NCBI GenBank assembly: GCA_025774205.1
Contig: JALGWK010000037.1
Span: 1 to 22,201 of the forward strand
Direction of reading: 5' to 3'
DNA from: a bacterium
Lineage (GTDB): Bacteria; Blakebacterota; Blakebacteria; Blakebacterales; Blakebacteraceae
Length of the DNA stretch: 22,201 nt
Shown: positions 11,180-22,201 of the stretch, piece by piece
How positions within the stretch are numbered: the first letter of the stretch is position 1
Layout of the letters: each line of letters begins with the position of its first letter
Notes under the pieces: generated by a model
The model's input: the letters and a program-made list of their open reading frames with translations, nothing else
The model's database searches: none
What the model was told of the DNA's origin: nothing
Made by a program: the position numbers and the translations under genes

Positions 11180-13983
11180 GTCCGGAGGCACAGGTCAAAA
11201 CGATCACCGAACACATGAAGAAATTCGAAGAGAGCCGGTTCGCGAATCCCTCCCGGGCCGGCATTTCCATGTCGCGGTTCTTCACCACCGAAGGCCGTCA
11301 CCCCTTCGAGGAGGTGGCCTGGGAGAAGCGTGACGCGGTCATCACCAACCACGAGGGTGAGGTGATCTTCGAACAGAAGGATGTGGAGGTTCCCGAATCG
11401 TGGTCCCAGCTGGCCACCAATGTGGTCGTCTCCAAGTACTTCGCCGGACCGGGCAAGAACTACCCGAGGGAGAACTCGATCAAGGAGCTGCTCGGCCGGG
11501 TCAGCACGACCCTGGGACGGTGGGCACGGGAAGGGAACTACTTCCGCACCGAGGACGCCGCCGCAGCGTTCGAGGCGGAACTGGCCCACCTGACCCTCAA
11601 CCAGTACATGGCCTTCAACAGCCCCGTCTGGTTCAACATGGGGGTGGAGGAAGTGCCGCAGTGTTCGGCCTGTTTCATCAACAGCGTCGAGGACTCGATG
11701 GAGTCGATCCTCGACCTGGCCAAGACGGAAGGGCTCCTCTTTAAATACGGTTCGGGCACGGGATCGAACCTCTCGACGCTCCGCTCCTCGAAGGAGAAAC
11801 TGTCAGGGGGAGGGATTCCCTCCGGTCCGGTTTCATTCATGCGCGGGTACGACGCCTTCGCGGGTGTGATCAAGTCGGGCGGCAAGACCAGGCGCGCGGC
11901 CAAGATGGTGATCCTCAACATCGATCATCCCGACGTGGAGGAGTTCATCGAATCGAAGGCCGCTGAAGAGCGGAAGGCGTGGGCGCTGATCAATTCGGGA
12001 TACGACGATGCGATCGACGGGGAGGCCTACGGATCGGTCTTTTTCCAGAATGCGAACCACTCGATCCGGGTGACCGACGAGTTCATGCACGCCTATCTGA
12101 ACGACGAGGATTTCACCCTCAAGGCGGTCACGTCAGGGGAGCCGCTGGAGAGCGTCCCCGCCCGGTTGCTCATGCGCCGGATGGCGGACGCGGCCTGGCA
12201 GTGCGGTGATCCCGGTATCCAGTACGACACGACCATCAACGATTGGCATACCTGCCTGGCGACCGACCGGATCCATGCCAGCAATCCCTGCTCCGAGTAC
12301 ATGTTCCTGAATGATTCGGCCTGCAACCTGGCCAGCCTCAACCTGATGAAGTTCCGTCGCGAGGACGGCAGTTTCAATATCTCCGCCTACATCCAGGCGG
12401 TGAAGGTCACCATCATCGCCCAGGAGATCATCGTCGATCGGGCGGGATATCCGCGGGAGATAATCGGGATCAACTCCTGGGACTTCCGTCCCCTCGGTCT
12501 CGGGTACGCCAACCTCGGGGCGCTCCTGATGGGCCGCGGGCTGGCGTACGATTCCGATGAGGGCCGGAATTTCGCGGCGGCTGTAACGAGCATGATGCAC
12601 GCCGCGGCCTATCTGACGAGCGCCGAACTGGCCTCGAGCCACGGTCCCTTCGCCGGCTACCCGGAGAACGAGGAGAGCATGCTCCGGGTGATAGCCAAGC
12701 ACCGCGAGGCGTCACAACAGATACCCTCGGAAGGCGTCCCCGCCGCGCTGCAGGCCGCCCACCAGGAGATCTGGGACCAGGTGGTCGAGCGGGGTGCCGA
12801 GCACGGATTCCGCAACGCGCAGGTGACCGTGCTGGCACCGACCGGGACCATCGCCTTCATGATGGACTGCGACACGACCGGCGTCGAACCGGACATCGCC
12901 CTGGTGAAGTACAAAAAACTGGTGGGCGGCGGCATGCTCAAGATCGTCAACCGTACCGTCCCGCTGGCGCTGGAGAGCCTCGGCTACTCTTCCGATCAGA
13001 TCCGGGGGATCATCGAATACATCGACGAGTACGATACCATCGAGGGCGCTCCCGAGCTCATGAGTGAGCACCTGACTGTCTTCGATTGTGCCTTCAAGCC
13101 GGCGGGCGGGGTGCGCAGTATTGACTGGATGGGGCACCTGAATATGATGGGCGCGGTACAGCCCTTCCTCAGCGGAGCCATTTCGAAGACCGTCAACATG
13201 CCGAACGAGAGCACGGTCGAGGATATCGAGAGAGCCTTCCAGGAGGGCTGGCGTCTCGGCCTGAAGGCAGTGGCGATCTACCGTGACGGCTGCAAGTTCT
13301 CCCAGCCGCTGAATACCTCGGCCACCACGGACCGCGGGGCGTCGACAATAGACGGCAAGGCTGTTCCACCCCGACGGCGGCTGCCCGATGAGCGGCGGGC
13401 GATCACCCACAAGTTCACCGTGGGGGGGCATGAGGGCTATCTGACGGTCGGGATGTACGAGGACAGCCAGCCGGGCGAGATCTTCATCGTCATGGCCAAG
13501 GAGGGCTCCACCATCTCCGGCCTGATGGATACGATCGCCACCATGATCAGTCTCGCCCTGCAGTACGGGGTGCCCCTCTCGGCGCTGGTGAACAAGTTCT
13601 CCCACATGCGCTTCGAACCGGCCGGGTTCACCAACAACAAGGAGATCCCGCTGGCGAAGTCGATCATCGATTATATCTTCCGCTGGCTCGGTCTCAAGTT
13701 CATGCCGATCGAGGAGCAGGGAGGGGGTTTCCCGGAGGTTCCGGCGGATGAGAATTCCAGCCCTGTCAACAAGGTCGCCGCGGCAGCCATCACGAAGGGC
13801 GATGATCTGCTGGAGGTCGATCGGGCGAAGGGCTTCCTGCCGCAGAAGATGGAAGCCTCCGAGGTGAACCTGATCCAGTCGCAGATGGACGCGCCAGCCT
13901 GCCAGAACTGCGGCAGCATCATGGTCCGGAACGGCGCCTGCTACAAGTGCCTCAACTGCGGGGCGACGAGCGGCTGTTCTTAG
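11176..13983 (+). CDS. nrdJ: Adenosylcobalamin-dependent (class II) ribonucleoside-diphosphate reductase
   Basis: The protein has 935 residues from the ATG at 11176, preceded by GGGAG at an 8-base gap. The in-frame ATG at 11161 is the next best, and a TTG at 11044 lies inside the promoter. It reduces ribonucleotides to deoxyribonucleotides with a cobalamin-generated thiyl radical, without oxygen. The finger loop NPCSE (370-374) carries the radical Cys372 and Glu374. Cys166 (CSACF) and Cys383 (SACNLASLN) fit the redox pair, 11 residues separating Cys372 and Cys383 as in the Thermotoga enzyme. LAPTGTIAFMMDCDTTGVEPD (about 553-573) and KYKKLVGGG are class II hallmarks. The last 30 residues (C909, C912, C922, C925, C928, C934) form the zinc-ribbon tail that re-reduces the active site. 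Full length and intact. No cobalamin riboswitch was seen in the leader. Confidence 0.96.
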   Translation: MSPEAQVKTITEHMKKFEESRFANPSRAGISMSRFFTTEGRHPFEEVAWEKRDAVITNHEGEVIFEQKDVEVPESWSQLATNVVVSKYFAGPGKNYPRENSIKELLGRVSTTLGRWAREGNYFRTEDAAAAFEAELAHLTLNQYMAFNSPVWFNMGVEEVPQCSACFINSVEDSMESILDLAKTEGLLFKYGSGTGSNLSTLRSSKEKLSGGGIPSGPVSFMRGYDAFAGVIKSGGKTRRAAKMVILNIDHPDVEEFIESKAAEERKAWALINSGYDDAIDGEAYGSVFFQNANHSIRVTDEFMHAYLNDEDFTLKAVTSGEPLESVPARLLMRRMADAAWQCGDPGIQYDTTINDWHTCLATDRIHASNPCSEYMFLNDSACNLASLNLMKFRREDGSFNISAYIQAVKVTIIAQEIIVDRAGYPREIIGINSWDFRPLGLGYANLGALLMGRGLAYDSDEGRNFAAAVTSMMHAAAYLTSAELASSHGPFAGYPENEESMLRVIAKHREASQQIPSEGVPAALQAAHQEIWDQVVERGAEHGFRNAQVTVLAPTGTIAFMMDCDTTGVEPDIALVKYKKLVGGGMLKIVNRTVPLALESLGYSSDQIRGIIEYIDEYDTIEGAPELMSEHLTVFDCAFKPAGGVRSIDWMGHLNMMGAVQPFLSGAISKTVNMPNESTVEDIERAFQEGWRLGLKAVAIYRDGCKFSQPLNTSATTDRGASTIDGKAVPPRRRLPDERRAITHKFTVGGHEGYLTVGMYEDSQPGEIFIVMAKEGSTISGLMDTIATMISLALQYGVPLSALVNKFSHMRFEPAGFTNNKEIPLAKSIIDYIFRWLGLKFMPIEEQGGGFPEVPADENSSPVNKVAAAAITKGDDLLEVDRAKGFLPQKMEASEVNLIQSQMDAPACQNCGSIMVRNGACYKCLNCGATSGCS

Positions 13984-15720: not shown

Positions 15721-16218
15721 ATGATTCTGAAGAGACACCCCCTGCTGCTGGCCATCGGGCTCTTCGTCATCCTCCTCCTTTTATGGCTGCTCTCCTCCGG
15801 TCATTACACGACCCTGATCATCTCGTTCGGTGTCGTCTCCTGCGCCCTCGTACTCGTACTCTCACTGAAGATGGAGATCGTCGACTCCGAAGGGGTCCCG
15901 ATCCATCTGTTCGGGCGCGGTCTGGTCTATGCCCCCTGGCTCCTCTGGCAGATCTTCCTCTCGAACGTGGATGTCGCGAAGCGGATACTCAGTCGGAAGG
16001 TCGCCATAAGCCCGCAGCTGATCGAGGTGGAGACGAGCCAGAAGACCGACCTCGGTCGGGTGATCTACGCCAACTCGATCACGCTGACCCCCGGCACGGT
16101 CTCGATCCAGGTCCACGACGACAGGATCCTGGTGCACGCCATCGCCCGCGAGGTCGCCGACGACCTTCAGCAGGGTGAGATGGACCGTCGGGTGACACGA
16201 CTGGAGGGTCAGAGCTGA
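15721..16218 (+). CDS. mnhE: Mrp/Mnh Na+/H+ antiporter subunit E
   Basis: The protein has 165 residues. Two N-terminal membrane segments (LLLAIGLFVILLLLWLLSSG and TTLIISFGVVSCALVLVLSL) are followed by a third hydrophobic patch (GLVYAPWLLWQIFLSNVDVAKRIL) and a soluble tail with the family signature KTDLGRVIYANSITLTPGTVSI and a closing hydrophilic region. Length and order fit MnhE/MrpE (about 160 residues), a core subunit needed for assembly of the complex rather than for ion conduction itself. It opens the operon, and its stop overlaps the next start as TGATG. Only a weak ribosome site (AAGAG) precedes the ATG. Confidence 0.93.
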   Translation: MILKRHPLLLAIGLFVILLLLWLLSSGHYTTLIISFGVVSCALVLVLSLKMEIVDSEGVPIHLFGRGLVYAPWLLWQIFLSNVDVAKRILSRKVAISPQLIEVETSQKTDLGRVIYANSITLTPGTVSIQVHDDRILVHAIAREVADDLQQGEMDRRVTRLEGQS

Positions 16219-16505
16219 TGTTCAGTGCGGCGATGGCGGCTCTCCTGGTCTGCATGGTCATGACCATGATCCGGGCGGTGAAGGGGCCGACGGTCTTCGA
16301 CCGGATCCTGGCCCTGAACAGCTTCGGCACCAAGACGGTGCTGGTGATCGCCGTCGTCAACTTCCTGGCCGGCCGTCCCGAGTTCCTCGACCTGGCGATC
16401 GTCTACGCTCTGATGAACTTCATCGTCACCATCGCGGTCCTCAAGTTCACGCACTTCGGCCACCTGGCGGGCATTCCCGACCAGGAGAAGGACGGGGAGT
16501 CGTGA
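16218..16505 (+). CDS. mnhF: Mrp/Mnh Na+/H+ antiporter subunit F
   Basis: The protein has 95 residues with three membrane segments, the usual size for MnhF/MrpF. The family motif is clear: RAVKGPTVFDRILALNSFGTKTVLVIAV, followed by LDLAIVYALMNFIVTIAVLKF. The ATG shares its A with the stop of mnhE (TGATG). Its own stop lies just before the mnhG start. The C-terminus ends in a charged tail (QEKDGES). Confidence 0.93.
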   Translation: MFSAAMAALLVCMVMTMIRAVKGPTVFDRILALNSFGTKTVLVIAVVNFLAGRPEFLDLAIVYALMNFIVTIAVLKFTHFGHLAGIPDQEKDGES

Positions 16506-16507
16506 CC

Positions 16508-16832
16508 ATGGCCGCCGTCCTCGACATCGCCAGCTGGGTTCATCGCCGGTTCGATCTTCGTGATCATCGGCGGGATCGGCCTGCTCCGACTGCCCGACTT
16601 CTACACCCGGGTCCACGCGGCCAGCATTACCGACACGGTCGGCGCCTGGCTGATCCTCCTCGGCCTGCTGCTGCAGGTGGAGCACACCCTGGTGGGAATC
16701 AAGCTGGTCCTCATCCTCGTTTTCCTCATCCTGACCTCGCCCCTGTCGAGCCACGCGCTCACTAAAGCCGCCTATTTCCGCGAGACCCCGATGCTCAGGG
16801 GCAGACCGGACCAGCCGGGGGACGGGGAATGA
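16508..16832 (+). CDS. mnhG: Mrp/Mnh Na+/H+ antiporter subunit G, interrupted by a frameshift near the N-terminus
   Basis: The start at 16508 has GGGGAG eight bases upstream (16494-16499) and gives MAAVLDIASW, a normal MnhG opening. The rest of the protein (GFIAGSIFVIIGGIGLLRLPDFYTRVHAA, then three membrane segments, about 100 residues) is in the next frame, open from 16506 to 16832. The break lies between about 16532 and 16545, at CAGCTGGGTTC: removing one G from GGG would restore SWFIAGSIF. As written the only complete in-frame gene starts at GTG 16560 and lacks most of the first helix, while the upstream frame reads on as unrelated sequence to 16765. Either an indel error or a real lesion. 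The 3' end overlaps the next ATG by four bases. Confidence 0.8.
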
Positions 16833-17407
16833 TCGATATCATCCACGTGATCCTCTTCGTCTTCCTGGCAGCGATCGGCGTCGCCATCATCCGGCTGCGC
16901 GACCTCTTTGCCGCCGTCATGCTGGCCGGGATCTTCAGCCTGCTGTCGGCCACTCTGTTCACGGTGATGGATGCCGTCGACGTGGCCTTCACCGAAGCGG
17001 CGGTCGGCGCGGGGATATCCACCCTGCTCATGCTGGCGACCCTCTCGCTCACTTCGAGTGAGGAGAAACCGGCCGTGAACCGGCGCCAGGCCATGATCGG
17101 GCTCGTCGTCGTCACCATCACCGGCGCGGCACTCATCTACGGTACCCTCGACATGCCCCGCTACGGCGATCCCGACGCGCCGATACACCATCACATGGCG
17201 CCCCGCTTCATCGAAGACTCCCCCGAGGAGATCGGCATCCCCAACGAGGTCACTTCGATCCTGGCCTCCTACCGCGGCTACGACACCTGGGGAGAAACGA
17301 CCGTGATCCTCGCCGCGGCGATCGGGGTGATGCTCCTTTTCGCTGCGCCACCCGTTTCACGTCGGCGTGAGGATGAGCTGTTCACACCGGGGGAGGGGAC
17401 CGGCTGA
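16829..17407 (+). CDS. DUF4040 + MbhE-type antiporter subunit (equivalent to MrpA C-terminal part)
   Basis: The protein has 192 residues. Residues 1 to about 75 carry three membrane segments and the DUF4040/MbhD pattern (IRLRDLFAAVMLAGIFSLLSATLF, then AFTEAAVGAGISTLLMLATL). Residues about 88-172 carry two further segments (AMIGLVVVTITGAALIYG and TVILAAAIGVMLLFAAPP) around an exposed loop with EDSPEEIGIPNEVTSILASYRGYDTWGETTVIL, typical of MbhE and the MrpA C-terminus. In canonical Mrp systems these regions are part of the large MrpA. Here they are one separate fused gene, as MbhD plus MbhE. The start overlaps the mnhG stop (ATGA), and the stop overlaps the mnhB start (TGATG). Confidence 0.85.
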   Translation: MIDIIHVILFVFLAAIGVAIIRLRDLFAAVMLAGIFSLLSATLFTVMDAVDVAFTEAAVGAGISTLLMLATLSLTSSEEKPAVNRRQAMIGLVVVTITGAALIYGTLDMPRYGDPDAPIHHHMAPRFIEDSPEEIGIPNEVTSILASYRGYDTWGETTVILAAAIGVMLLFAAPPVSRRREDELFTPGEGTG

Positions 17408-17838
17408 TGGTCGTCCGGCACGTCATCCTGCGGTCCCTGAGCAAGATGCTCATCCCGCTCATCATGCTCTTCGCCCTCTACGTGCAATTCCACGGCGATT
17501 ACGGTCCCGGCGGCGGATTCCAGGCCGGGGTTATCTTCGGAGCCGGGATCATCCTCTACTCGCTGATATTCGGCCTGCCGAAGGCCAAGATGGTCTTCCG
17601 CCCGCGCGTCCTTCAGTACCTGATGGCCTTCGGGGTCTTCCTCTACGGATCGGTGGGGCTCGCGGCGATCCTCAAGGGCGGCAACTTCCTCGACTACAGT
17701 CACCTGGCTCACGACCCGGTCCACGGCCAGCATCTCGGCATCCTGCTGGTGGAGCTGGGTGTCGGCATCACCGTCGCTTCGGTCATGGCTACGATCTTCT
17801 TCCTCTTCACGGAGCGGAGGAGACGCGAAGATGTTTGA
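17407..17838 (+). CDS. mnhB: Mrp/Mnh Na+/H+ antiporter subunit B
   Basis: The protein has 143 residues with about four membrane segments, a normal length for MnhB/MrpB. The family motif is seen in LIMLFALYVQFHGDYGPGGGFQAGVIFGAGIILYSL, with the conserved H-G-x-x-x-P-G-G-G-F-Q-x-G. HGQHLGILLVELGVGITVASVM closes the domain. The ATG shares a base with the preceding stop, and the 3' end overlaps mnhC by eight bases. Confidence 0.93.
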   Translation: MVVRHVILRSLSKMLIPLIMLFALYVQFHGDYGPGGGFQAGVIFGAGIILYSLIFGLPKAKMVFRPRVLQYLMAFGVFLYGSVGLAAILKGGNFLDYSHLAHDPVHGQHLGILLVELGVGITVASVMATIFFLFTERRRREDV

Positions 17839-18190
17839 TCCCGGCCTCTTCAACTACTGGATCATCATGATCCTGATGATGACCGGGCTCTACACGGTCA
17901 TCGTCAAAGGGAACCTGATCAAGAAGGTCATCGGTCTGGGCATCTTCCAGGTCTCGGTGATCATGTTCTTTGTCAGCATGGGGAAGGTGCGCGGCGGCAC
18001 CGCGCCGATTGCGAGTGAGAGCTTCGAGGTCTACTCCAATCCGGTGCCCCACGTGCTGATGCTTACCGCCATCGTGGTGGCTGTTGCCACCCTGGCGTTC
18101 GCGCTGGCCCTTATCGTCCGGATCAAGGAAGCCTACGATACGATCGAGGAGGATGAGATCAGGGAGCTGGAAGCGGGGGAGGAGGGATAA
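17831..18190 (+). CDS. mnhC: Mrp/Mnh Na+/H+ antiporter subunit C (NuoK-like)
   Basis: The protein has 119 residues with three membrane segments, homologous to NuoK. The start at 17831 has GGAGG at 17816-17820. A frame opening at 17759 adds 24 residues that lie within mnhB and do not look like this family. Family features are GLYTVIVKGNLIKKVIGLGIFQVSVIMFFVSMG and the segment NPVPHVLMLTAIVVAVATLAFALALIVRI, with the conserved P-x-x-L-x-L-T-A-I-V-V. The C-terminus is acidic (EEDEIRELEAGEEG). It overlaps mnhB and ends five bases before mnhD. Confidence 0.92.
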   Translation: MFDPGLFNYWIIMILMMTGLYTVIVKGNLIKKVIGLGIFQVSVIMFFVSMGKVRGGTAPIASESFEVYSNPVPHVLMLTAIVVAVATLAFALALIVRIKEAYDTIEEDEIRELEAGEEG

Positions 18191-18195
18191 CCGGT

Positions 18196-19692
18196 ATGCA
18201 CGGTAGCGGCCTCTCCATATCCGCCCACCTTCCGGCGCTCCAGATCGCCGTCCCGCTCCTCTCGGCGGTGATCTGTGTCCTGATCCGCAAGGCCCGCGCG
18301 GCCTGGCTACTGGCCACAACGGTGGCCTGGGCGGCCTTCGCGGGAGCGTGCGTCCTCCTCAACCGGGTGATCCTGCACGGTACGATCAGCTATGAGCAGG
18401 GGGGATGGTCGCCACCCTGGGGGATCGAACTGCGGATCGACCTCTTCAACGCCCTGGTTCTGATCATCGTCACCGGGATCTGCGCGGTGGTGATCAGCGC
18501 GAGCCTCACCTCTCTCTCGATGGAGGTGCCGGAGAAGAGGCACAATCTCTTCTACGCCGCCTTCCTGCTCTGCATGACCGGGCTGGCGGGGATGACGATC
18601 ACCGGTGATGTCTTCAATATCTTCGTCTTCCTGGAGATCTCATCTCTCTCCTCATACGCCCTTATCTCCCAGGGAGCCACGCGTCGCGCGCTGACTTCCT
18701 CGATCCAGTACCTGGTGATGGGCACCATCGGCGGGACCCTGCTCCTGCTGGGGATCGGCATGCTGTATATGGTCACCGGCACGCTGAACATCGTGGATAT
18801 GGCGGACCAGCTGGCCATGGTCGGCCCGAACCGGACGGTCCTGGTCGCGCTGGCCTGTGTCACCGTCGGCACGAGCATCAAGCTGGCCGTTTTCCCGCTC
18901 CATATCTGGCTGCCGAACGCCTACACCTACGCTCCGGCCATCGTGACCGCCTTCCTCGCAGCGACGGCCACCAAGGTCGCCTTCTACGTCCTTGCGCGGT
19001 TCATCTTCAGCATCTTCGGTGTGGAACTGGCCTTCGAACAGATGCACCTCGACCGGGTGCTGATGCCGCTTGCGATCGTGGCGATGTTCGCCGGATCGAT
19101 CGTGGCCATCTACCAGACCGACATCAAACGGATGCTGGCCTACTCGAGTGTCGCCCAGATCGGCTACATGCTGCTGGGGCTCAGCATGGCCACTGTCCCG
19201 GGTCTCACGGGCGGTATCGTCCACCTCTTCAACCACGCCCTGATGAAGAGCGGGCTCTTCCTCGTGATGGCGTGCGTTCTGTTCCGTGTCGGGTCAACCC
19301 ATATCGACGCCATGCGTGGTCTCGGGAAGCGGATGCCGCTGACCATGGCCGCCTTCGTGATCGCGGGATTGAGCATGATCGGCGTGCCGCTGACAGTGGG
19401 ATTCGTCAGCAAATGGTACCTGGTGAGCGCTGCGATGGAGGCGGGACAGTGGCCGGTGGCGGTGTTGATCCTGCTCAGTTCACTCCTGGCCGTGGTGTAT
19501 ATCTGGCGGGTCGTGGAGGTCGCCTATTTCCAGGAGGCTCCTGAGGATGCGCCCGCAGTGAAGAAGGCGCCGATTGGTCTGCTGGTGCCTGTCTGGACAC
19601 TGGTATTCGCCATCATCTTCTTCGGTATCTTCACCTCGCTGAGTGCCGGTGTTGCCGGCGACGCGGCACGCATGCTGCTCGGAGCCGGTTAA
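18196..19692 (+). CDS. mnhD: Mrp/Mnh Na+/H+ antiporter subunit D (first of three proton-antiporter-like subunits)
   Basis: The protein has 498 residues and about 14 membrane segments, the normal length for MnhD/MrpD. GGAGGG (18181-18186) precedes the ATG. The ion path residues are present: Glu147 (FNIFVFLEISSLSSYAL), Lys229 (GTSIKLAVFPLHIWLP), His236 and Lys260 (AATATKVAFYVLARF). The helix QTDIKRMLAYSSVAQIGYMLLG is also typical of the NuoL/M/N family. It couples cation export to proton entry with the other subunits. The stop overlaps the next ATG by one base (TAATG). Confidence 0.94.
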   Translation: MHGSGLSISAHLPALQIAVPLLSAVICVLIRKARAAWLLATTVAWAAFAGACVLLNRVILHGTISYEQGGWSPPWGIELRIDLFNALVLIIVTGICAVVISASLTSLSMEVPEKRHNLFYAAFLLCMTGLAGMTITGDVFNIFVFLEISSLSSYALISQGATRRALTSSIQYLVMGTIGGTLLLLGIGMLYMVTGTLNIVDMADQLAMVGPNRTVLVALACVTVGTSIKLAVFPLHIWLPNAYTYAPAIVTAFLAATATKVAFYVLARFIFSIFGVELAFEQMHLDRVLMPLAIVAMFAGSIVAIYQTDIKRMLAYSSVAQIGYMLLGLSMATVPGLTGGIVHLFNHALMKSGLFLVMACVLFRVGSTHIDAMRGLGKRMPLTMAAFVIAGLSMIGVPLTVGFVSKWYLVSAAMEAGQWPVAVLILLSSLLAVVYIWRVVEVAYFQEAPEDAPAVKKAPIGLLVPVWTLVFAIIFFGIFTSLSAGVAGDAARMLLGAG

Positions 19693-20426
19693 TGAGCGTC
19701 CCGACCGCCATCGGCCTGGCCGTCATCTGGCCCCTCTTCGGGGGGATTCTCGTCCTCCTGCTGCGGAAGCGACCCAACCTGAGACCCAACCTGAGGGAAG
19801 GCGCCAGCCTCCTCACTGCCGCCACGCAGTTCATCCTGATCGCCTCCACGATCCTGCCGGCGGTCCGGTCGGGCCTGCGACCGGGACTCGACATCATCGA
19901 GGTTCTGCCCGGGCTGTCGCTCTCCTTCGAGGTCGAACCGCTCGGCATGCTCTTCGCGCTGGTGGCATCAGGCCTCTGGTTCGTCACCACGCTCTACTCG
20001 ATCGGGTACATGCGGGGGCACCACGAGGAGAACCAGACCCGGTTCTACTTCTTCTTCGCCCTCGCCATCACCGGGGCGGTGGGAGTCGCCTTTGCCGGCA
20101 ACGTCTTCACCCTCTTCGTCTTCTACGAGGCGATCACCCTGTCGACCTTCCCTCTGGTCACCCATCACGGGACCGAGAAGGCGAAGAAGGCCGGCCGGAT
20201 GTATCTGGGGATCCTCATGGGGACCTCGATCGCCTTCCTGCTGCTGGCCATGGTGTGGACCTGGCTGGTGGCCGGCACTACCGACTTCAGGCCGGGCGGG
20301 ATCCTGGCCGGCAAGATCACCGACGGCAACCTGGTGTTGCTGCTCGCGCTTTACGCCTTCGGGACCGGCAAGGCGGCCCTGATGCCGTTCCATAAGTGGC
20401 TTACGTCTTCGGCCCCGAACTGCTGA
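19692..20426 (+). CDS. Second MnhD-like subunit, N-terminal part (gene interrupted by an internal deletion)
   Basis: This 244-residue frame is normal proton_antipo_M protein up to KAALMPFHKWL (about 227-237), with Glu146 (FVFYEAITLSTFPL), Lys227 and His234, and then ends in seven out-of-frame residues. The continuation is the overlapping frame at 20396-21115. Compared with the intact paralogue just upstream, about 31 residues are missing at the junction, including the helix with the equivalent of Lys260. Near the start, ACCCAACCTGAG is present twice in tandem (19772-19795), giving RPNLRPNL. As written the product would be truncated and unlikely to conduct protons. It may be a pseudogene or an assembly artefact. 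Confidence 0.8.
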   Translation: MSVPTAIGLAVIWPLFGGILVLLLRKRPNLRPNLREGASLLTAATQFILIASTILPAVRSGLRPGLDIIEVLPGLSLSFEVEPLGMLFALVASGLWFVTTLYSIGYMRGHHEENQTRFYFFFALAITGAVGVAFAGNVFTLFVFYEAITLSTFPLVTHHGTEKAKKAGRMYLGILMGTSIAFLLLAMVWTWLVAGTTDFRPGGILAGKITDGNLVLLLALYAFGTGKAALMPFHKWLTSSAPNC

Positions 20427-21115
20427 CGTCCACCGGCGCCAGCGTCTGGCTCATGTGGGTGGCCGCCTTCACCATTCTCACCGCCAGCATCATCGCGATC
20501 CGCAAGGACAACCTGAAGGCGCGGCTGGCCTACTCCACCATCAGCCAGCTCTCCTACATCGTGCTCGGGGCTGCCCTGGCGACCCACTGGGGGATCGTGG
20601 GGGGTAGCATGCACATCGTCATGCACGCCTTTGGCAAGATTACGCTCTTCTTCTGTGCCGGAGCGATCCTGGTAGGAGCCCATAAGTCAGAGGTCAGCGA
20701 GATGGATGGTCTTGGCCGGAAGATGCCGCTGACCTTCATTGCCTTCCTGATCGGCTCCCTCAGCATCATCGGACTTCCGCCGCTGGGCGGCTCGTGGAGC
20801 AAGTGGTACCTCATGCTGGGCGCCGCCGACGCGGGACAGATGGTCATGATGGGCGTACTGATGGCCAGCTCGCTGCTGAGCATCGCCTACCTGATGCCGG
20901 TCGTGGCCCGCGGCTTCTTCCGGCCCCTGCCGGAGGGCGGAGACTCCCACGGAGAGCACGACGGTCATGACGATCACGGCGAGCGCAAGGGCGCGGCCGG
21001 ATGGGATCTGGCGCCGGTCCTCTGCTGGCTGCCGCCGGTCCTGACGGCGATCGGATGCATCATCCTCTTCTTCAGTGCCCAGGGTATCTTCGAACTCCTG
21101 AGCGGGATCGGTTAG
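20396..21115 (+). CDS. Second MnhD-like subunit, C-terminal part
   Basis: This 239-residue frame has GTG as its first possible codon, but it begins in the middle of the family fold (AYVFGPELL) with no ribosome site of its own, so it is the remainder of the gene starting at 19692. It carries the later family motifs (IAIRKDNLKARLAYSTISQLSYIVLG, HIVMHAFGKITLFFCAGAIL, LTFIAFLIGSLSIIGLPPLGGSWSKWYL) and the final membrane segments. A loop at about residues 180-198 is rich in histidine and acidic residues (DSHGEHDGHDDHGERKG) and could bind divalent metal. Together with the upstream part, and with about 31 residues restored, the protein would have about 507 residues, normal for this family. Confidence 0.8.
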   Translation: MAYVFGPELLTSTGASVWLMWVAAFTILTASIIAIRKDNLKARLAYSTISQLSYIVLGAALATHWGIVGGSMHIVMHAFGKITLFFCAGAILVGAHKSEVSEMDGLGRKMPLTFIAFLIGSLSIIGLPPLGGSWSKWYLMLGAADAGQMVMMGVLMASSLLSIAYLMPVVARGFFRPLPEGGDSHGEHDGHDDHGERKGAAGWDLAPVLCWLPPVLTAIGCIILFFSAQGIFELLSGIG

Positions 21116-21117
21116 CC

Positions 21118-21363
21118 ATGTACGAGGAACGGAAACGCTGGACCGACAATCCGCGCAACGTGAACTGGATCGTCCGGGGTGTCTTTATCGCGGCGGCGGT
21201 GTTGATCCTCTTCGATCTCCTCTACAGCAAGCACCCCCATTTCGGCATGGAGGGGATCTTCGGTTTCTACGGTATCTACGGGTTCGTGGCCTGTGTGGCC
21301 CTGGTCATCGCCGCCAAGGGACTCCGTGTCCTCCTGAAGCGGGACGAGGACTACTATGATTGA
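21118..21363 (+). CDS. Small two-helix membrane protein within the antiporter operon
   Basis: The protein has 81 residues from the ATG at 21118, two bases after the preceding stop. It starts with a charged stretch (YEERKRWTDNPRNVNW) followed by two membrane segments (VFIAAAVLILFDLLYS and GFYGIYGFVACVALVIAAKGLRVLL) joined by KHPHFGMEGIF, and ends KRDEDYYD. The charge pattern puts both ends in the cytoplasm. It is not one of the seven canonical Mrp subunits. It overlaps the next gene by eight bases, so it is made in step with the flanking D-type subunits and is probably an accessory part of the complex. No function is assigned. Confidence 0.75.
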   Translation: MYEERKRWTDNPRNVNWIVRGVFIAAAVLILFDLLYSKHPHFGMEGIFGFYGIYGFVACVALVIAAKGLRVLLKRDEDYYD

Positions 21364-22201
21364 GTTCCTCCCGCCAGGAACCCTGCTCATCCTCGGAGCG
21401 CTCCTCTTCATAGTCCTGAAGGGGCGGGCGGCGACAGTCGCCCTCCTCGTGCTGCCCGTACTCAGCTTCCTCCACCTGCTTAGTTTTGACATGGGCTACC
21501 TGATGCAGTTCTCCCTCTTCGGGTACGAACTGACACCCATCAGGATCGACAAACTCAGCATGGTCTGGGGGGTCATCTTCCACGGCGCGGCCTTCCTCTG
21601 TGCCCTCTACTCCATCCATGTCAAAGACCGGGTCCAGCACATCTCGGGGCTCATGTACGTCGGATCGGCCATCGGGGCGATCTTCGCCGGCGACCTGATC
21701 ACCCTCTTCATCTACTGGGAACTCACCGCGGCCACCTCGGTCTTCCTGATCTGGGCCAGTGGGACCGAGCGAGCCTACAAGTCGGGGATGCGCTACCTGA
21801 TCATCCAGGTTCTCTCCGGAGTCCTCCTGCTGGCAGGGGTCATCATCCGGGTCTCGGACGGCCTGGGCCTAGACTTCAACCTCATCACCAACACCTTCGA
21901 CTGGAGCGACACCGGGAGTCTCCTGATCCTCATCTCCTTCGGGATCAAGGCCGCCTTCCCGCTGCTGCACATGTGGCTCGGGGATGCCTACCCCGAGGCT
22001 ACCGTGACGGGGACGCTCTTCCTGAGCATCTTCACTACCAAGCTGGCGATCTACGCCCTGGCGCGCGGATTCGCCGGCCTCGACATCCTGATCTGGATCG
22101 GTGCCATCATGGCGATGTTCCCGATCTTCTTCGCCGTGATCGAGAACGACCTGCGGCGGGTGCTGGCCTACAGCCTGAACAACCAGCTCGGCTTCATGGT
22201 A
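21356..22201 (+). CDS. Third MnhD/NuoM-like antiporter subunit, 3' end outside window
   Basis: An open frame from ATG 21356 runs off the right edge, at least 282 residues without a stop. It belongs to the proton_antipo_M family: Glu122 (LITLFIYWELTAATSVFLIW), Lys198 and His205 (FGIKAAFPLLHMWLGDAYPEA), Lys229 (FTTKLAIYALARGFAG), and VIENDLRRVLAYSLNNQLGFM at the end of the window. All ion-path residues seen in the intact first D subunit are kept. The ATG lies inside the end of the small membrane protein gene (ATGATTGA). It may be a true antiporter subunit or the start of a larger respiratory-type module beyond the window. Confidence 0.9.
   Translation, partial: MIEFLPPGTLLILGALLFIVLKGRAATVALLVLPVLSFLHLLSFDMGYLMQFSLFGYELTPIRIDKLSMVWGVIFHGAAFLCALYSIHVKDRVQHISGLMYVGSAIGAIFAGDLITLFIYWELTAATSVFLIWASGTERAYKSGMRYLIIQVLSGVLLLAGVIIRVSDGLGLDFNLITNTFDWSDTGSLLILISFGIKAAFPLLHMWLGDAYPEATVTGTLFLSIFTTKLAIYALARGFAGLDILIWIGAIMAMFPIFFAVIENDLRRVLAYSLNNQLGFMV

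Follow-up and report, generated by a model that had tools for sequence, protein, structure and literature searches.

Three residues of the Mrp antiporter of Bacillus pseudofirmus, MrpA His248, MrpA Lys254, and MrpD Lys250, have been discussed as belonging to its ion path (PMC9568556). An operon for a cation/proton antiporter of this Mrp/Mnh (CPA3) type fills the right third of the window, by which we mean the whole stretch of 22,201 nucleotides analyzed here. The window corresponds to contig C106, one of the 527 contigs of a 3.09-Mb draft genome (G000) with 85.9% completeness and 4.8% contamination. Pfam and NCBIfam matches identify mrpE, mrpF, mrpG, an MbhD/MbhE-type gene, mrpB, mrpC, and three genes for D-type subunits, referred to here as D1, D2, and D3 (Table 1). 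The genes for the B, C, D, E, F, and G subunits are codirected, as is required of an Mrp/CPA3 operon, and the gene set fits the families PF00361 and PRK08375/PRK12662/PRK12668 ("subunit D"). The operon departs from the Mrp/Mnh pattern in two respects: three D-type genes and a free MbhD/E-type gene replace one full-length MrpA, and D2, as assembled, is frame-shifted and lacks helix 8.

Table 1. Features of the Mrp/Mnh-type operon in the window, with the junction in D2 and the length difference in mrpG
Feature	Coordinates	Strand	Basis
mrpE, mrpF, mrpG, MbhD/MbhE-type (DUF4040), mrpB, mrpC	15721..18190	+	Pfam and NCBIfam matches
mrpG, second length error, 5 bases fewer than relative, frame shifted	16540..16541	+	Comparison with G001
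D1, intact D-type paralogue, Lys260	18196..19692	+	97.6% amino acid identity to G001; profile matches
D2, N-terminal part, up to junction (…PFHKW-L)	19692..20401	+	PF00361 profile positions 1-107; PF00662; NCBIfam PRK08375
D2 junction, 97 bases absent, frame shift	20401..20402	+	Alignment with relative; homologue spacing
D2, C-terminal part, other frame, mechanical GTG start at 20396	20402..21115	+	PF00361 profile positions 143-293
D3, third D-type subunit, runs off contig end	21356..22201	+	PF00361; NCBIfam PRK12668

The reading frame of D2 that opens at 19692 breaks at 20396-20402, after which an out-of-frame run leads to a stop at 20426 (244 amino acids); the C-terminal part lies in a different frame, which stays open between 20396 and 21115. 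This is the frame jump that had been reported in a first-pass annotation of the same DNA. The N-terminal part matches PRK08375, the NCBIfam model for a putative monovalent cation/H+ antiporter subunit D, and the two parts match complementary ranges of the 294-position PF00361 (Proton_antipo_M) profile, with a gap between the ranges that is the missing segment. A D-type subunit is expected to have an unbroken frame that includes transmembrane helix 8 and the conserved lysine of this helix; D2, as assembled, does not.

The same-genus comparison was made with one genome, G001, whose matching contig is public record JALGVQ010000034.1. There D2 is an intact open frame of 507 amino acids, to which the N-terminal and C-terminal parts in the window show 88.6% and 79.3% amino acid identity, respectively. 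The nucleotide alignment is clean to 20401 and resumes at 20402, and exactly 97 bases of the relative lie between. In each of the 22 homologues measured, the Tyr of the Y-[IV]-FG motif lies 34 codons after the Trp of the PFH-x-W motif; the window has 5 bases at this place, so that the spacing kept by the family also gives a loss of 97 bases. The earlier estimate of about 90 bases, or about 31 residues, was right as to the loss itself and too small as to its size; 97 bases amount to 32 codons plus 1 base, and the loss, as had been stated, is not a multiple of three.

In G001, the absent segment corresponds to the rest of LPAAMVAPTPVSALLHAVAVVKAGVFTIMKVSV, which is helix 8, with His248 and Lys254 (G001 numbering). 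The helix aligns with a helix of MrpA of solved structure (7d3u chain A), with His and Lys in register. According to the first-pass annotation, the loss takes in the helix that bears the conserved lysine, and the equivalent residue of the intact paralogue is Lys260; both statements are correct. We infer that a protein without the helix 8 segment would be very unlikely to work. The helix 8 histidine of the relative's D2 is MrpA-like.

Searches of the draft's own genome for the missing segment, made with the sequence of the relative, returned nothing but the left flank already known and some short matches due to chance, and no copy of the left flank was found among viral contigs. By the test set in the first-pass annotation, the short junction would not be a lesion if homologues shared it; it was found neither in the 18 loci from the genome collection nor in the loci from 386 genomes.

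The same draft contains further lesions of this kind. The comparison took in about 447 kb of G000 and about 318 kb of G001, many short contigs that read as N being set aside; the roughly 87 kb that the two have in common, a part of the genome, contains six clear frame-breaking length errors inside conserved genes of G000 (-97, -83, -71, -31, -20, and +22) and a less certain one of -32 (L126). The -97 change is the one in D2. The others fall in an ABC transporter gene (-83; L129, ~3375, contig C223), just after the start of a gene (-71; L069, ~3867), in elongation factor G (EF-G) (-31; L079, ~604), in a glycosyltransferase-like gene (-20; L080, ~8970), and in pyruvate phosphate dikinase (PPDK), where the additional 22 bases are a perfect tandem copy (L069, ~396-418, contig C10). 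The tatC gene contains a run of 23 Ns (L080, ~12730-12752) at which the relative shows no base to be missing. When the five deletion junctions and the duplication were modeled, the position of each was ambiguous by only 0 to 1 base. Raw rows reporting a stop inside a gene were not counted as lesions; those inspected proved to be matches on the antisense strand or in an alternative frame, as is typical of G+C-rich DNA.

A search of the whole draft for core families likewise showed EF-G in two frames on contig C111. In the same search the higher-scoring copy of dnaE, on contig C208 (L216, ~nt 1300), was split in two frames with a gap that falls between …LFERFLNPER and YERRSEIIRYVVEKYGEKSVAQIITFGTM; the lost stretch is the segment with the catalytic PDIDID motif of Pol III alpha. 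Because rpoB, rpoC, pheT, and alaS are intact, the errors of the draft are patchy. The draft also contains another EF-G-like gene and another member of the polC family (C174), so the broken EF-G and dnaE genes are not strictly the only copies and essentiality alone is no proof that their lesions are artificial. Within the operon itself, mrpG (~16510-16832) has 5 bases fewer than its counterpart in the relative near its start, at 16540, which is probably an error of the same class. The G001 draft has a frame-breaking lesion of its own, a loss of 37 bases in L178 (~13070), in a gene that is intact in G000. Further rows of -76, -49, and -7 were listed for G001, and -37 was the one among the G001 rows that was followed in detail. 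Since the lesions of G001 lie in other genes, their positions are not conserved between the two drafts, and errors of the same class seem to be present in the G001 draft. The L178 gene was named by eye and resembles RelA/SpoT.

Because the same draft has further short, non-triplet errors in core genes, we favor the explanation that the 97 bases are missing through an artifact of assembly in a metagenome-type draft and not through biological loss, and we put the probability of this at about 0.9. Lesions of the same class occur elsewhere in the draft, core genes included, and the lesion in D2 is absent from homologues and from the sister genome. The lesions resemble the scaffold-join or gap-closing errors of short-read drafts in their short non-triplet losses and blunt junctions, in the tandem duplication of abutted ends, and in the presence of N runs where no base is missing; the perfect tandem copy of 22 bases is what would be expected when overlapping contig ends lie side by side without being merged. 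Most likely the contig ends flanking an unassembled stretch in D2 were placed end to end, with neither the intervening bases nor Ns between them, perhaps in a step of scaffold joining or gap closing that used a wrong estimate of the gap. Under such a scheme the reads of the sample would hold the missing bases. We searched the literature on draft-assembly errors and found no paper on exactly this error class. Among the three possibilities originally offered, namely, loss of function, a site variable in the population, and assembly error, the last is strongly favored. In the organism itself the MrpA/D-like subunit is most likely intact.

A genuine and very recent deletion, either fixed or segregating, that inactivates D2 and with it the Mrp-like antiporter is unlikely. 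The deletion does stand in the sequence as given, it removes a helix with residues important in Mrp complexes (PMC9568556), and the loss of 5 bases in mrpG is a second frame-breaking loss in the same operon, so that the two lesions together could mean real decay of the operon. However, the same type of lesion is found in EF-G, PPDK, and dnaE of this draft, the neighboring subunits D1 and D3 are strongly conserved, and a test for relaxed selection on D2, based on conserved columns and on dN/dS, gave no sign of sequence decay on the branch leading to the window. Of the 176 columns that 18 homologues conserve, 1 is changed in the window only and 5 are changed in G001 only. The dN/dS values against G001 are 0.10 and 0.22 for the two parts of D2, and those of the other mrp genes range from 0.04 to 0.22. 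On these comparisons, D2 was under constraint until very recently, or is so still. The D2 junction also has no direct repeats. A more specific form of this explanation, in which a recent 97-base deletion that did not involve repeats segregates in an uncultured lineage, disabling the MrpA-like member of an Mrp complex that has three D-type subunits and leaving the other genes of the operon in place, is quite improbable.

The particular route to a real deletion that had been suggested, deletion between two copies of GTGGCT, is highly unlikely. The hexamer does occur at 20396-20401, in frame with the right-side reading of Val-Ala-Tyr. For such a repeat, the residue that precedes the Tyr must be Ala (GCT), and that position is occupied in the 22 homologues by Val (12), Thr (4), Ile (3), Leu (2), or Met (1) and by Ala in none; most of the codons there end in C, and the relative reads TCG GTC TAC before and at the Tyr. 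The flanks in the relative, CGGTGGCT followed by CCCC on the left and GGTTTCGGTC followed by TAC on the right, permit one optimal split, which shows no microhomology. Judged on the allele of the relative rather than on an intact allele of the species itself, no direct repeat flanks the lost segment, and a search near the junction turned up weak direct repeats at most, none of them bracketing the gap. The proposed repeat is not supported, because Ala does not precede Tyr in the homologues and because the split against the relative is unique. The suggestion that the two halves function as separate proteins that jointly form a shortened subunit is scarcely credible: each half is an open frame about 240 codons long, but neither contains helix 8, its His and Lys included, the second half has only a mechanical GTG as its start, which lies within the old coding sequence and is not preceded by an obvious ribosome-binding site, and all of the listed homologues are single open frames, none of them split at the junction.

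The explanation by assembly error implies that the break in D2 is most likely not a real biological feature. It also calls for caution in a more general sense, as lesions in single genes of a fragmented draft should not be taken as pseudogenes until the rate of lesions in core genes is known. In the approximately 87 kb compared with the sister genome, there is about one frame-breaking error per 12 to 15 kb, in genes such as EF-G. Counts of pseudogenes and claims of loss of function for G000 would be inflated as a result, and probably those for the sister genome as well.

Synonymous divergence from G001 is uneven over 15721-22201. The dS value is about 0.2 to 0.3 in D1, D3, and a small gene, 0.34 in mrpC, and 0.5 to 0.8 in the others; D2, with a dS of about 0.6, is flanked on both sides by blocks of low dS. 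Recombination is a possible cause of the uneven divergence within the operon.
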